From positions 1 to 45,936 of the forward strand of contig JAOUFN010000020.1 in the NCBI GenBank assembly GCA_029858285.1: a stretch of 45,936 nucleotides of DNA, written 5' to 3'. The notes beneath the pieces are model-generated. The model did not search any database and was not told the origin of the DNA. It saw only the letters and a list, made by a program, of their open reading frames with translations. Both the position numbers and the translations under genes were made by a program. Shown here piece by piece: positions 19,793 through 26,319 of the stretch. Each line of letters begins with the position of its first letter. Position 1 is the first letter of the stretch. The stretch comes from Nitrospirota bacterium (GTDB taxonomy: Bacteria > Nitrospirota > JACRHL01).

Positions 19793-21031
19793 ATGGGCAC
19801 GTTTTCCGGTCGATTCTGCGACGGCCTCACCGCCCGCTCCCACGCGGTGCGGGTGGAGGTGACCCGCGCCTACCTCGACATCCGCCCCGAGGGCGACGAC
19901 CTGTCTCCCGCCAATTGGTGGTTGAACGGGCTGGACTGGACCGATCCGGTGCTGCCCGGCGACCCGGTGACGATCACCCACCGGGACTTTCCGGACGCGC
20001 TGCTGACGGTGAGCGACGCCAAATTTCTTGCCGAAATTCAGCGTTTCGACCCCGAGGCGCTGGGCAAATCGGCTCGCGCCGCCACCCGCCGCCACAGCGG
20101 CCTGAAGACCACGGCCACCGCCGCCGGAGCCCTCGCCCTGTGCGCAGTGGCGGTGATGGTGTTGCCCGGTCTGCTGGCGCCACTGATTCCGCCGTCCTGG
20201 GAACGCCATCTGGGCGACTCGGCGGCCGCCTCCTTTCTGAGCCACGCCAGGGAATGCCATTCCACGGCAGGGGACGACACAGTCGCCGTCCTGACCCGCC
20301 GGTTGCAGGACGCTTCCCGGGGGCCGTTCGACCTCACCCTGCATGTGGTGAAATCGGACATGGTCAACGCATTCGCCATGCCGGGGGGGCAGGTTGTGCT
20401 GTTCAGCGGCCTGATCGACAAGGCCGAATCGCCGGACGAGGTAGCCGGGGTGCTGGCCCACGAAACCGCCCACGTGGTGCGCCGCCACGGCACCCAGGGG
20501 CTGATTCGCTCCACCGCGCTGAGTGTGGCGGTGAGCACGCTCACCGGTTCGACGGACGGCGGCGCCTTTACCGGTCGCGTCGCCGCCCAGTTGACAGATC
20601 TGTCATTCTCCCGCGTTCAGGAGGAGGAGGCCGACCGCGTGGGGGCGGACATCATGCGCCGCGCCGGCTGGTCCGTAGCCGGCATGGGCCAGTTCTTCGA
20701 GCGCATGCAACGGGACCATGGCGACCAGATTCCGGCCCTCCTGTCCACCCACCCGCGCCCGGCGGACCGGGCGCAACAACTGGCACGGGAACGGACCAAT
20801 CAGGAGCGGCAGGGAACCCCCACCACAGCGGCGCTGACCGAAGAGCAATGGCAGGCGCTGCGCGGCATTTGCGGCGTCCCCGCCAAAGTGCCCGCCAAAG
20901 CCTCCGACGCGACCTCGGCTGACCCACCGGCCGAAACCGCCAAAACCCCCGCGTCCCCCGCGCCACATCATCCACCGCGCCAGCCCCGTGGCCGGAACAC
21001 GGCCAGCGCCGATTCAGGCGCCCACGCCTGA
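19793..21031 (+). CDS. M48-family metalloprotease, membrane-anchored
   Basis: 412 residues. The N-terminal 100 residues have no recognised catalytic motif and resemble a small beta domain. A hydrophobic helix (about 106-130, ATAAGALALCAVAVMVLPGL) anchors the protein. The protease domain then shows NAFAMPGGQVVLFSGLI, the zinc motif HETAH at 223-227 (HExxH) and the third-ligand helix EEEADRVGADIM. This is the M48 (HtpX/Ste24-like or BepA-like) layout. The C-terminal 80 residues are Pro/Ala/Thr-rich. AAGG precedes the ATG. The gene follows the DUF898 gene at 6 bp, so the two form an operon. Its 3' end overlaps the convergent antiporter gene by 18 bp. Confidence 0.9.
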   Translation: MGTFSGRFCDGLTARSHAVRVEVTRAYLDIRPEGDDLSPANWWLNGLDWTDPVLPGDPVTITHRDFPDALLTVSDAKFLAEIQRFDPEALGKSARAATRRHSGLKTTATAAGALALCAVAVMVLPGLLAPLIPPSWERHLGDSAAASFLSHARECHSTAGDDTVAVLTRRLQDASRGPFDLTLHVVKSDMVNAFAMPGGQVVLFSGLIDKAESPDEVAGVLAHETAHVVRRHGTQGLIRSTALSVAVSTLTGSTDGGAFTGRVAAQLTDLSFSRVQEEEADRVGADIMRRAGWSVAGMGQFFERMQRDHGDQIPALLSTHPRPADRAQQLARERTNQERQGTPTTAALTEEQWQALRGICGVPAKVPAKASDATSADPPAETAKTPASPAPHHPPRQPRGRNTASADSGAHA

Positions 21032-22186
21032 CGCCGTGCGGCCGGTAAGGCGGCGCGCGGCGCCGATCCACAGGGGGCTGACCGCCAGCGACAGGGCGAT
21101 GACGGAGATCGCCATCTGGTAGCCGCCCATCCCGATCACCCCCACCTGCAGCCCGAGAGCCGCCAGCACAAAACTGAATTCACCGATCTGGGCCAGCAGG
21201 GCGCCGCCATACAGGCTGTCGCGCCACCCGCCGTGCAGCAGCCGCAGGATGGCCGCGTTGACCACCGTCTTGGCAACCAGCACCAGCAGCACGAACAGCA
21301 GCACGGTGCCCAAAAAGTCGCGCAGGAACGCCAGATCCACCAGCATCCCCACCGATACGAAGAACAGCGCCACGAACACCACCTGGAACGGCGCCACATG
21401 GCGGCGCACCCAGTGGGCCTCCCGCGCCGCCCCCACCAGCATCCCGGCCACCAGCGCGCCCAGCGCGGCGCTGAGCCCGGCCAGTCCGGTGACCCACGCC
21501 AGCCCGAAGCACAACGCCAGAGCGGCGAACACCTCCATTTCGTGATCGGCCCGCAACGGCCACAGCCACGGCAGGCTGATGCGCGGCGACAGGGCCATCC
21601 ACCCCACCACCCCCAGCAGCGCCACCACGCCGCTGATCTGGGTGGCCAGTTCCGGCCCCGACAACACCTGCCCGCCCATCATGGAAACCCCCAGCAGCAT
21701 GGGGATCAACAGCACGTCCTGGGCCACCAGCACCCCGGCCACACCGTGACCGGTGGGGGTATCCAGTTCACTGTTCCGGGTGAGCAGTTTGAGCACCACC
21801 ACGGTGCTGCTCATGCTGACGATGCAGCCCAGCAGCACCACCCGCTCCGGCGGCCAGCCGGTCCAGCGGGCCAGAATCGCCACCAGGGCGATGCACAGGG
21901 CCACCTGCAGCAGGGTTCCCCCCACCGCCACCCGCCACGCGCCAACCAGTTCCCGCGGGTGCAGTTCCATGCCCACGAAGAACAGCAGCAACACCACGCC
22001 CATGCCGCCCAGACGGGTCAGCACGGCATGGTCGGTGACCACCGCCAGGCCGTGGGGCCCCAGCGCCACACCGGCGCACAGATAGGCCAGCACCTGCGGC
22101 AGACGCAGGGCGCGCAGCACCAGGCCAAAGCCCAGTATCGCCAGCAGCGCCCCCACCAGCGCGGGCATGGCGGGATCCAGCGGCAT
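21014..22186 (-). CDS. CPA2-type cation:proton antiporter (KefB/KefC-like membrane domain)
   Basis: 390 residues, nearly all membrane helices. LVLRALRLPQVLAYLCAGVALGPHGL, SMSSTVVVLKLL (the broken-helix region), GVLVAQDVLLIPMLLG (the conserved Gln-Asp of CPA2 exchangers), and LAQIGEFSFVLAALGL are typical. No TrkA-N/RCK domain follows, unlike KefB/C. It probably exchanges K+ or Na+ for H+. It lies 35 bp downstream of the methyltransferase-ATP-grasp gene on the same strand, so co-transcription is likely. Start ATG 22186 has GGGG about 9 nt upstream. The 3' end overlaps the M48 gene tail by 18 bp. Confidence 0.88.
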   Translation of the reverse strand: MPLDPAMPALVGALLAILGFGLVLRALRLPQVLAYLCAGVALGPHGLAVVTDHAVLTRLGGMGVVLLLFFVGMELHPRELVGAWRVAVGGTLLQVALCIALVAILARWTGWPPERVVLLGCIVSMSSTVVVLKLLTRNSELDTPTGHGVAGVLVAQDVLLIPMLLGVSMMGGQVLSGPELATQISGVVALLGVVGWMALSPRISLPWLWPLRADHEMEVFAALALCFGLAWVTGLAGLSAALGALVAGMLVGAAREAHWVRRHVAPFQVVFVALFFVSVGMLVDLAFLRDFLGTVLLFVLLVLVAKTVVNAAILRLLHGGWRDSLYGGALLAQIGEFSFVLAALGLQVGVIGMGGYQMAISVIALSLAVSPLWIGAARRLTGRTASGVGA

Positions 22187-22221
22187 TTACGAAATCCCCG
22201 GTATCAAGCGTTCCCGGAGTT

Positions 22222-24183
22222 TCAGGCGCCCCCGGAAGCGCTGGTGGTGGCCGCCTGCACCTCTTGCGGGGTCAGCCCCAGCCGGTCCTCGGTGGTCCGC
22301 AGAATCGCCCCCAGCATGTCGGTGTAGCGCATGCCGGCCAGCCCCGCCATCTTGGCCAGATGGCCGTCCCAGCACCAGCCGGGATTGGGGTTTACCTCCA
22401 GCAGGCGCGGCACGCCGCTGGCGTCCAAACGCCAGTCGATGCGGGTGTAGTCGCGGCACTCCAGACGTTCCGCCAGGCCCACGCACCACTCCACCAGCGC
22501 CTGCTCGGTTTCGATGGGCAGGTTGGCGGGGACCGAGCGCAGGACGGAATAGGGGGAGTCCGGCACCCACTTGGCCTCGTAGCCGCAGATTCTCGGCAGG
22601 CCGTCGGGCAGGCCCGTGTAATCCTCCTCGAGCACCGGCAGCACCGTGTAGCCGGCGGGCGGCGTGCCGATGATGCCGACGGTAAGGTCCTTGCCGGTGA
22701 GGAATTCCTCCACCAGCACCGGTTTTTCGTAACCGAAGCGGTCGCGGATGGTGCGCACCTGGTCGATCAACTCTTCCGGGGTGTACACCACGCTCTTGGT
22801 GGTGATGCCGAAGCTGGAATCGCCGAAGTTTGGCTTGACGATGGCCGGGAACGGGAACGGCAGGTCATAGGCCATGTCCTCGGCCTGCAGGAACACGCCG
22901 GAGGGTGTCGGCAGGCCCATTTCCTTGGCGATGCCGCGCACCAGCGACTTGTCGTAGCAATAGGCCAGACACTGGGGATTGGAACCGGAATACGGGATGC
23001 CCAGCATCTCCAGCAGGGCGGGCACGTGCAGTTCGCGCCGCGCGTCGTTGGAAAAGCCCTCGTCGCACAGGTTGAACACATAGTCCACACGCCCCGCCAG
23101 ACGCCCGAGGTCCTGAATCAGGGTGCCGTGGTTCTGCAGGTAGGTGAACTTGTATCCCTCGCGCTCGGCCAGGGCTTCCTTCATGCGGTCGATGGTATAG
23201 AAATCGTCCTCGTCGAACACCGTGAGCGGTTTCAGCGGGTCCGGCCGCTCCGGATCACCCATCACCACGGCCACATGGCGCACCCCCTGGCTGACGGGTT
23301 TGCGCACCGCGCTCCACTCCTTGCGCACCACCGCCACGGCAATATTGCGCTGGGCCATCATGCCCAGGTCCTGATCGCGCTGCGATTCGGTGCGCACGGC
23401 CACGTCCGGGAACGCCGCATCGGTGAATCCGGCCCGCTCCAGCAGGCGCTGAATGGCGTCGCGGGAATACAGCCGCTCGGCGTAGAACTGGTCGGCCAGC
23501 ACCCCTTTTTCCACATGGGTGACCACCTCGCGGGACACCAGACGGTCGCTGTCGTCGGTCAGGGAGCGCTCACGGCAGACAAACAGTTTGCTGTCGATCC
23601 ACTCCCAGGAGCGCGGCTGGAAATGGCTGCGCAGATAGTCGCCATCGGCGATGTCGATGAGAATTTTGCCCCACGGCTTGAGCACGCGCATCACCTCGCG
23701 CAGCACCGCCAGGTCGTCCTGCAGGCTCTCGAAATAACCGAAGCTGTTGCCCAGAATCAGCACCGCGTCGAAGCGGTCGGACTGAAAACCCAGACGGCGG
23801 GCGTCGCCCTCGCGAAAGCGGATGCGCAGCCCTTCCTTGCGTCCCTGATCGCGGGCCTTCTGGATCAGATAGTGGGAACGGTCCAGCCCCTCCACGCCAA
23901 CAATCCCGCGCCGCGCCAGTTCCAGGGTGTGCCGACCCTGACCGCAGCACAGGTCCAGCACCCGGGACTCGGGGGCGAGGTTCAGCAGTTCGATGATGCG
24001 GCCCACCTCGCGGCGGGTGATTTCCGCATCGCCCACCACGTCGCCGTCGGTCTTCAGGTAAAGGGGATTGAAAATCTTCCGCCACCAGTCGCCGCGAACG
24101 TGGGCTTCCAGATCCGGGACGGGGCCCAGGGTGCGTGCGCGGGAACCAACGCGGCGGGTACCGCCGGTCTTGCTCCGGTTCAT
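22222..24183 (-). CDS. Fusion of class I methyltransferase and D-Ala-D-Ala-ligase-like ATP-grasp enzyme
   Basis: 653 residues, two catalytic domains. Residues about 30-290 are a Rossmann SAM methyltransferase: motif I VLDLCCGQGRHTLEL (75-89), then GVEGLDRSHYLI, FDAVLILGNSFGYF and VLKPWGKILIDI. Residues about 300-640 are an ATP-grasp ligase of the Ddl type: GIPYSGSNPQCLAYCYDKSL (395-414), lysine in AIVKPNFGDSSFG (Lys450), hinge VEEFLTGKDLTVG, and metal ligands in RIDWRLDASGVPRLLEVNPN (Glu596, Asn598). True Ddl is about 310-360 residues and has no methyltransferase, and the cell presumably has ddl in its division cluster. I infer a peptide-like or amino-acid-derived small molecule that is ligated and methylated. 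The substrate is unknown. Start ATG 24183 follows GGAGA. The antiporter gene is 35 bp downstream. Confidence 0.88.
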   Translation of the reverse strand: MNRSKTGGTRRVGSRARTLGPVPDLEAHVRGDWWRKIFNPLYLKTDGDVVGDAEITRREVGRIIELLNLAPESRVLDLCCGQGRHTLELARRGIVGVEGLDRSHYLIQKARDQGRKEGLRIRFREGDARRLGFQSDRFDAVLILGNSFGYFESLQDDLAVLREVMRVLKPWGKILIDIADGDYLRSHFQPRSWEWIDSKLFVCRERSLTDDSDRLVSREVVTHVEKGVLADQFYAERLYSRDAIQRLLERAGFTDAAFPDVAVRTESQRDQDLGMMAQRNIAVAVVRKEWSAVRKPVSQGVRHVAVVMGDPERPDPLKPLTVFDEDDFYTIDRMKEALAEREGYKFTYLQNHGTLIQDLGRLAGRVDYVFNLCDEGFSNDARRELHVPALLEMLGIPYSGSNPQCLAYCYDKSLVRGIAKEMGLPTPSGVFLQAEDMAYDLPFPFPAIVKPNFGDSSFGITTKSVVYTPEELIDQVRTIRDRFGYEKPVLVEEFLTGKDLTVGIIGTPPAGYTVLPVLEEDYTGLPDGLPRICGYEAKWVPDSPYSVLRSVPANLPIETEQALVEWCVGLAERLECRDYTRIDWRLDASGVPRLLEVNPNPGWCWDGHLAKMAGLAGMRYTDMLGAILRTTEDRLGLTPQEVQAATTSASGGA

Positions 24184-24546
24184 GCTGTTTTCTCCATAGA
24201 GACAGGCGGGAACGTTCCGCCCGGATCATCACCCCGCCCAACACGGGCGGTGGCTTCCGAGGACGGATTCGGCGCACGGGCCAGGCCCCTGGGGATGGAC
24301 CTTGCGGGAGGCGTCCGGCCGACCGAACGGCGTGATTTTCAACCTTGCCGACAAATGATGCAATGGGATTTTCGCCTCACGGGAATTTTTTTTTTGATAC
24401 CCTCTCCCAGTCCATTAAAAAGTGGGGGAAAAAGCCCCCCGCGCCACATCGTCCCTTCCCTTCAGGTGCCCCTTCCATGGACAATGGCGGCGGGACCTGA
24501 AGCGGAAGAAAATTCAGTGGGTGGTTCGGGGGAGAGGTCGGCACAC
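24184..24546. other. Divergent intergenic region, fusion gene to SLC13 permease
   Basis: About 360 bp. Near the fusion gene is a nearly perfect palindrome, GGCGGGAACGTTCCGCC (24204-24220, core GGAACGTTCC), 20 bp before its ATG, a possible operator. Further right are a T10 run (about 24388-24397) and a GGGGGAAAAAGCCCCC hairpin (about 24424-24440). I see no clear promoter boxes. Confidence 0.35.
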
Positions 24547-26319
24547 ATGGACCACAGACAAATTGCCATACTGGGCATCCTCGGTGGCGCCATGGGCCTG
24601 TTTTTGTGGGGCCGCTGGCGCTACGACGTGGTGGCCCTGCTGGCGTTGCTGGCGGGTGTCGGGCTGGGCGTGGTGGACGCGGGCACGGCCTTCAACGGCT
24701 TTGCCCACCCGGCGGTCATCACGGTGGCGGCGGTGCTGGTCATCAGCCGCGCCCTCACCCGCTCCGGCGCCATCACCCCCCTGGCCGATTTTCTGGCCAT
24801 GCACGTGCGCAACGGCCTGATCTACCGCATCACCCTGCTGGGGGGCAGTTCGGTGGTGTCCGCCTTCGTCAACAACGTGGCCGCCCTCACCATGTTCATG
24901 CCGGTGGCCTCCTCCACCTGCAAACGCACCGGCATTGCCCCCTCCAGCATCTTCATGCCGCTGGCGTTCTGCACCATGCTGGGGGGCATGACCACCATGG
25001 TCGGCACCCCGCCCAACATTATTGTGGCCAACTTCCGCGCCACCGCCACCGGCACCCCCTTCGGCATGTTCGATTTCACTTCGGTGGGTCTCTCGGTGGC
25101 GGTGGCGGGCATCCTGTTTGTGACCCTGTTCGCCCCATGGCTGATCCCGCGCCACCGTACCGCCCGTCCGGAACCCGAAGAATTGTTCGACATCAACAAC
25201 TACTTCTCCGAGCTGGAGGTCGGCGCCGGTTCCCCGCTGGTGGGCCAGAACGTGGGCGATTTTGCACAGGGCAGCGGCCTGGACATCCAGATTCTCGGCC
25301 TGTTCCGTGGCGAGCGGCGCATGTGGGGGCTGTTGCGGCTGGAGGTGATGCAGCCCGGCGACGTGCTGCTGGTCAACTGCGGCGCCGACGTCATCCGCAC
25401 CCTCACCGAGCGCCACGGCCTGCAGGTGGTGGGCGAGGAATCGCTCATGGAGCAGATGAGCCGCGCCGACATCGCCGTGGCCGAAGCGGTGGTCAAGCCC
25501 GATTCGGCCGCTGCGGGCGGCACCCCCCTGGGCCTCAAGCTGCGTTCCCGCTACGGCATCAACCTGCTGGCGGTGGGCCGCGAGGGGCAGCCGGTGCGCA
25601 GCCGACTGCGCGACGTGGTGCTGCGACCCGGTGACGTGCTGTTGTTGCAGGGCGACGCCCAGGAGCTGCCGGAGGTCATGTCCACATTGGGACTGCTGCC
25701 CCTGGCCAGCCGCAAGCTGCACATCAGCGCCCGCCGCGCCGCCCTGCCCCTGAGCATTTTCGCCATCGCCATTGCGCTGATCGGCTTCGGCGTGCTGTCC
25801 GCCCCCCTCTCCCTGGCCGGGGCTGCCGTGGTCATGGTGCTGCTGGAAATTGTCCCGGCGCGTGAAATGTACGACGCGGTGGACTGGCCGGTGGTGGTGA
25901 TGCTGGCGGCCATGATCCCGGTGGGCGAGGCCCTGGACCACACCGGCGCCGCCGGGCTGGTGGGCGCCCAACTGGCGCGGCTGGGATCGGGGCAGTCGCC
26001 CCTGGTGATGATGGCGCTGCTGCTGGTGATCACCATGTTCCTGTCGGACGTGATGAACAACGCCGCCACGGCAGTGGTGATGGCCCCCGTGGGGCTGGAC
26101 CTGGCATCCCGCGTGGGGGCGAGCCCGGACCCGTTCCTGATGGCGGTGGCGATTGGCGCGTCCTGCGCCTTCCTGACCCCGGTGGGGCACCAGAACAACA
26201 CCCTGGTGATGGGACCGGGGGGCTACCGGTTTGGCGATTACTGGCGGCTGGGACTACCGCTGGAGGCGGTGATCGCGGGGGTTTCCATCCCCCTCATCCC
26301 CCTCTTCTGGCCGTTCTAG
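24547..26319 (+). CDS. SLC13/DASS-family permease with two TrkA_C domains
   Basis: 590 residues. Membrane half 1 contains NGFAHPAVITVAAVLVISRA and VVSAFVNNVAALTMFMPVA, then GGMTTMVGTPPNIIVANF. This matches the SNT-like signature of divalent anion:Na+ symporters (half 2: FLSDVMNNAATAVVMAPVGL). Between the halves (about 220-410) lie two TrkA_C/RCK_C-type regulatory domains, seen as GSPLVGQNVGDFAQ with VMQPGDVLLVNCGAD, and GLKLRSRYGINLLAVGREG with RPGDVLLLQGD. Members with this layout carry sulfate, dicarboxylates or similar anions, but the exact ion cannot be read. The ATG at 24547 has GGGGAGAGG about 10 nt upstream. The frame is open far upstream through the antisense of the fusion gene, which I reject as coding. 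Confidence 0.9.
   Translation: MDHRQIAILGILGGAMGLFLWGRWRYDVVALLALLAGVGLGVVDAGTAFNGFAHPAVITVAAVLVISRALTRSGAITPLADFLAMHVRNGLIYRITLLGGSSVVSAFVNNVAALTMFMPVASSTCKRTGIAPSSIFMPLAFCTMLGGMTTMVGTPPNIIVANFRATATGTPFGMFDFTSVGLSVAVAGILFVTLFAPWLIPRHRTARPEPEELFDINNYFSELEVGAGSPLVGQNVGDFAQGSGLDIQILGLFRGERRMWGLLRLEVMQPGDVLLVNCGADVIRTLTERHGLQVVGEESLMEQMSRADIAVAEAVVKPDSAAAGGTPLGLKLRSRYGINLLAVGREGQPVRSRLRDVVLRPGDVLLLQGDAQELPEVMSTLGLLPLASRKLHISARRAALPLSIFAIAIALIGFGVLSAPLSLAGAAVVMVLLEIVPAREMYDAVDWPVVVMLAAMIPVGEALDHTGAAGLVGAQLARLGSGQSPLVMMALLLVITMFLSDVMNNAATAVVMAPVGLDLASRVGASPDPFLMAVAIGASCAFLTPVGHQNNTLVMGPGGYRFGDYWRLGLPLEAVIAGVSIPLIPLFWPF

Follow-up and report, generated by a model that had tools for sequence, protein, structure and literature searches.

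MTAG, a methyltransferase–ATP-grasp fusion shared by bacteria and archaea, is a candidate single-gene source of an N-methylated dipeptide-like metabolite

D-Alanine-D-alanine ligases (Ddl) are ATP-grasp enzymes whose residue roles are established for E. coli DdlB: the GGxSxER motif of the N-terminal domain binds D-Ala1, GMTxxSLLP forms the D-Ala2 site, and Tyr216 is a residue of the omega-loop. NmbA, whose structure was deposited as 'Methyltransferase, putative' (PDB 9RI2), is the N-methyl-bacillithiol synthase and methylates the cysteine amine of bacillithiol (PMC12719100). We analyzed a window of 45,936 nucleotides from a Nitrospirota genome (contig JAOUFN010000020.1), in which one gene, here named MTAG, fuses a methyltransferase related to NmbA with an ATP-grasp ligase of the Ddl type. 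Each domain is of a familiar kind, and their fusion defines an uncharacterised variant family. A literature search for the architecture found no description, which is weak evidence of novelty because its coverage was partial, and public protein families name the ligase half a D-Ala-D-Ala ligase.

The MTAG gene occupies positions 22222–24183 of the minus strand, from an ATG at 24183 through the stop codon, and encodes 653 amino acids. The first-pass annotation had proposed a 653-residue methyltransferase/ATP-grasp fusion, an architecture borne out by the open reading frame, by Pfam and by homologues; of the span it gave, 22186–24183, the upper bound is right, but the frame ends at 22222, and at 22186 the following gene has its start codon. 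The N-terminal part is a class I SAM methyltransferase domain with a cap (aa ~26–286; 23326–24108, minus strand), identified by Pfam as Methyltransf_25 (aa 75–172, E 1.9e-20). Alignment, model and Pfam agree on its class I features, namely motif I (DLxCGxG), an acidic residue after β2 and a Rossmann-like fold. The C-terminal part is a Ddl-like ATP-grasp ligase domain (aa ~300–632; 22288–23286, minus strand) that matches Dala_Dala_lig_C (aa 442–628, E 1.6e-21). A predicted model built with 65 homologues consists of two folded parts (mean pLDDT 82.1) whose relative orientation is uncertain (pTM 0.56), and a structure search with it retrieves Ddl structures (target TM scores reaching about 0.80) as well as class I methyltransferases.

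Both active sites are preserved in the alignment of 65 homologues. Asp77, Gly81, Gly83 and Asp101 of the methyltransferase are invariant, as are Lys450, Arg581, Asp583 and Asn598 of the ligase, with Glu596 present in 64/65; the ligase residues that had been listed as intact from the window alone (Lys450, Glu596, Asn598) are all among these. Chance is excluded, because mean column identity reaches 66% over homologues drawn from both prokaryotic domains. Cysteines 79, 80, 203, 373, 405, 409, 533, 576 and 604 are each conserved in at least 91% of the 65 homologues, and Cys604 (invariant) and Cys533 (98%) look specific to MTAG inside the ligase clade.

A scan of genome contigs yielded at least 573 candidate relatives, and the best 80 of these all contain both domains, at 60–81% identity over ~630 aa. 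Carriers (at least 80 loci) span over 20 phyla, mostly uncultured, of bacteria and archaea; as the majority are metagenome bins, an individual placement may be in error. Bacterial carriers belong to Nitrospirota, Nitrospinota, Planctomycetota, Chloroflexota, Omnitrophota, Zixibacteria, Atribacterota, Acidobacteriota, Actinomycetota and several candidate phyla, and archaeal carriers to methanogens (including the cultured Methanoculleus chikugoensis), Nitrososphaerota, Jordarchaeia and Lokiarchaeota. Full-length MTAG occurs in 24/197 genomes of the phylum of Methanoculleus and in 4/199 Planctomycetota genomes, and intact MTAG in 8/296 sampled genomes of the window's own phylum, a patchy distribution. 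The window's family has the gene in three of four genomes, with no copy found in G002, and each of 15 carrier genomes tested (15/15) has one full-length copy. Bacteria and archaea interleave in the MTAG tree, with 8 changes by parsimony, only 1 of them forced by well-supported branches; this pattern suggests repeated horizontal transfer, and the gene has probably been transferred often.

Incomplete copies also exist. Genome G654, from the window's phylum, has a methyltransferase-only remnant at 60% identity (L174:1613–2491), flanked by transposase-like frames and likely a truncation. Broken copies in G080 and G196, from the phylum of Methanoculleus (L156:823–2309 and L165:1598–3070), may be pseudogenes or assembly errors. 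A natural separation of the two domains was rejected on the basis of these three copies.

The ligase half differs from Ddl at the positions that would define its substrates. In a ligase-domain tree, MTAG forms a single clade (100/100) whose stem is long (1.56 changes per column) and whose crown is short, and canonical Ddls form a separate clade (100/100) that leaves MTAG outside. Pfam detects no Dala_Dala_lig_N in MTAG. The GGxSxER motif is missing, and an Asp-rich segment, GDPxxPDxLKP...FDxDD, stands instead. Trp539, at the end of a YEAKW motif (aa 535–539; 22567–22581, minus strand), replaces omega-loop Tyr216, and the motif NPNPGWCWDGH (aa 598–608; 22360–22392, minus strand), invariant in the 65 homologues, replaces NTxPGMTxxSLLP of Ddl, with GWCWDGH in place of GMTxxSLLP; both substitutions are found in 65/65 homologues. 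The first-pass annotation had named a comparison of the ligase pocket with Ddl as a check, and by alignment the D-Ala-D-Ala-specific residues are not kept. The window genome encodes a canonical Ddl of its own (GGRSSEREIS, with Dala_Dala_lig_N), located between FtsZ-like and FtsW-like frames (names given from their sequences). On sequence criteria, with its position outside the Ddl clade, the loss of the N-domain and substrate residues and a separate Ddl in the genome, the MTAG ligase is not a D-Ala-D-Ala ligase.

The closest unfused ligase, P0003 of genomes G661, G599 and G729 (at L172:7450–8475), is 39–40% identical to the MTAG ligase and contains the motifs GDP...EED and NPNPAWAYDG. Its gene has no methyltransferase fused or adjacent and is convergent with an S15-type peptidase gene. 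The first-pass annotation would have been contradicted by homologues in which the two domains are separate genes of a known pathway; the ligase of G661 and G599 has neither a partner methyltransferase next to it nor a known pathway. On the rhizobial symbiosis plasmid pNGR234a, an ATP-grasp protein 28% identical to P0003 lies upstream of a CapA-family gene (L191:5725–8807). In other loci, a KamA-family aminomutase accompanies two tandem Ddl-like ATP-grasp ligases (L140:5321–8989, L141:5481–9257, L142:4464–8237, L143:4884–7996, L145:5262–8918, L109:4576–8868), with a GNAT acetyltransferase in some loci and a further RimK-like ATP-grasp protein in L109. These clusters look like an uncharacterised pathway for β-amino-acid peptides. 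Their ligases group with the MTAG ligase, apart from Ddl (larger clade 100/100), and the KamA setting of these unfused relatives is as would be expected of small-peptide ligases. A link between the aminomutase and MTAG itself was rejected, since KamA is present in 21/40 carriers versus 16/40 non-carriers and does not track MTAG.

For the methyltransferase half, the nearest solved relative is NmbA (E 4.6e-29 over aa 26–254, cap included), ahead of the next methyltransferase at 8.4e-14. Unfused methyltransferases too have NmbA as their best PDB match, so the resemblance lends only slight weight to N-methylation of an amino-acid-like amine. The cap, which in NmbA is the substrate lid, is conserved like the SAM core (mean column identity 83% versus 81%), suggesting that the substrate is the same in every host. 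Bacillithiol is unlikely to be that substrate, as BshC is absent from 19/21 MTAG carriers; it is also absent from the window genome.

No recurrent partner gene was found in the direct flanks of 80 MTAG loci, whose neighbors were clustered and scanned with Pfam; repeats are at chance or genus level, and an operon partner was rejected accordingly. Tabulating neighbors for the same architecture across genomes was a check put forward by the first-pass annotation, and it returned a fusion that is widespread in the 80 loci and neighbors that are not conserved. The functional unit is the MTAG gene alone. A role as a defense system was rejected, with PADLOC yielding just a generic methyltransferase-fold match, and so was a mobile carrier, as no MTAG relative turned up in the collections of viral contigs, plasmids and phages that were searched.

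Upstream, a CitMHS/TrkA_C transporter gene in the opposite orientation begins near 24547 (start taken from sequence, family from Pfam), and between it and MTAG sits a 44-bp block (24286–24329, minus strand) with the palindrome CGTTCGGTCGGCCGGACG, ~103 bp upstream of the MTAG start. The block is 82% identical to one upstream of the sister-genus MTAG gene (E 7e-8), which makes it a possible operator or promoter element. A palindrome-bearing upstream region had been claimed for this gene and is there, the palindrome itself being modest. A regulon was rejected: CGTTCGGTCGGCCGGACG has one mismatch-free site in the genome, and a control pattern is at least as frequent. A riboswitch or leader RNA was likewise rejected, as Rfam has no match near MTAG (just one tRNA in 8 loci scanned) and the leader folds no better than shuffled sequences (z -0.10).

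We consider it probable that MTAG works on its own as a bifunctional N-methyltransferase/amide ligase, turning common precursors into a single conserved metabolite that is N-methylated and dipeptide-like. The N-terminal domain would carry out a SAM-dependent methylation, most likely on nitrogen, of an amino-acid-like substrate. The ATP-grasp domain would use ATP to convert a carboxylate to an acyl phosphate and then couple this with an amine, following the chemistry of Ddl on a different substrate pair. The product would be a small N-methylated dipeptide-like metabolite built from compounds that every cell has, and because such precursors are present everywhere, MTAG could act alone in many lineages without an operon. 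A lone gene in which both active sites and the substrate-facing parts are conserved points to one product from universal precursors. The fusion shows linked use of the two domains, which is not proof that both act on one molecule. We infer that they share a compound, that methylation falls on nitrogen and not on oxygen or carbon, the order of the steps, and what the product is and does. As to its class, the first-pass suggestion of a small peptide-like or amino-acid-derived compound is still the best guess, since the catalytic residues are kept and the D-Ala-D-Ala residues lost. More tentatively, and with less confidence than in the enzymatic assignment, MTAG alone may make in two steps a new N-methylated small metabolite (a solute, thiol or cofactor), common to many anaerobic bacteria and archaea and horizontally spread across dozens of phyla.

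Other readings of the locus were weighed against this one. That MTAG is a Ddl variant serving the cell wall is extremely improbable. Pfam, NCBIfam and Foldseek do name Ddl as the nearest kind, but MTAG scores 117.6 bits against an NCBIfam Ddl cut-off of 243, its specificity residues are replaced, and its carriers include archaea without peptidoglycan; the cell wall does not need MTAG, because the window genome has its ordinary Ddl near ftsZ. Only slightly more credible is a functional unit with the downstream gene, in which a cation/proton antiporter would export or respond to the product. The CPA2-type antiporter (Na_H_Exchanger; 21014–22186, minus strand) does follow MTAG by 35 bp on the same strand, as first reported, and the two genes also adjoin in the sister genus (L010/L110). 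The adjacency is limited to these two genera: the antiporter was not found beside MTAG in the next relative (L011/L111), the window's copy is the sole Na_H_Exchanger that Pfam finds among 34 downstream neighbors tested, and between the two genera it is 67% identical versus 81% for MTAG. With the neighbors of other homologues mutually unrelated, the proposal that the two genes form a biosynthetic unit is not supported, and we judge the antiporter to lie outside the system.

The remaining alternatives concern the target. One is an N-methylated low-molecular-weight thiol, for example an N-methyl-cysteine dipeptide, which would act as a redox buffer or bind metal in anaerobes without glutathione and bacillithiol. 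It is unlikely; in its favor, NmbA acts on a cysteine amine, 19/21 carriers lack BshC and 19/21 a GshB-type domain. Methanogens are among the carriers, as are many lineages from the subsurface or from sediments, and surveys describe methanogens without GSH or γ-Glu-Cys and unidentified thiols in anaerobes (PMC7278568, PMC6336425). Against a thiol, unrelated methyltransferases match NmbA too, anaerobes commonly lack GSH and BSH, and no conserved thiol-handling gene neighbors MTAG. We regard as about equally unlikely a zwitterionic, betaine-like compatible solute made by multiple N-methylation and amide formation. Its patchy, probably transferable single gene is distributed as solute genes are, the invariant Trp539, Trp603 and Trp605, which lie within the ligase pocket or close to it, could build an aromatic box, and Methanoculleus, an MTAG carrier, is reported to use small solutes under ammonia stress (PMC12776343). 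Yet the known Methanoculleus solutes are made by other pathways, groundwater or fresh sediments are the source of many carriers, and neither a solute transporter nor an osmotic gene is conserved beside MTAG. Modification of a macromolecule (a protein side chain, a protein terminus or RNA) seems just as doubtful as the solute. Modification of proteins is known for both ATP-grasp and methyltransferase domains, and 66% mean column identity across domains would fit a conserved target, but a universal target sits poorly with a gene that is patchy even within a family, and both Ddl and NmbA, which the domains resemble, are small-molecule enzymes.

The N-methyltransferase/amide ligase reading is directly testable, as it concerns one gene and one protein with homologues in cultured methanogens such as M. 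chikugoensis. An identity of 55–81% over ~630 residues, seen across Nitrospirota, Planctomycetota, methanogens and Asgard archaea in a protein with no fixed neighbor, indicates strong, uniform selection for one reaction, and the product of MTAG, once identified, would likely reveal a small molecule common among anaerobic microbes. Compared with known systems, MTAG shares with Ddl and VanA-type ligases the ATP-grasp fold and the catalytic Lys, Arg, Asp, Glu and Asn, and differs from them by the missing Ddl N-domain motif, the Tyr216-to-Trp exchange, another acceptor motif, a clade of its own and the fused methyltransferase. NmbA has the same class I fold as the MTAG methyltransferase and is similar in sequence through the cap, whereas it is a stand-alone enzyme, distant in sequence, from bacillithiol-making bacteria. 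The ligases of the KamA clusters (L109, L140–L146) have FNLxEG, AKW and NPNP-type motifs like those of MTAG, but are 31–41% identical to it, unfused, and present as two per cluster with an aminomutase.
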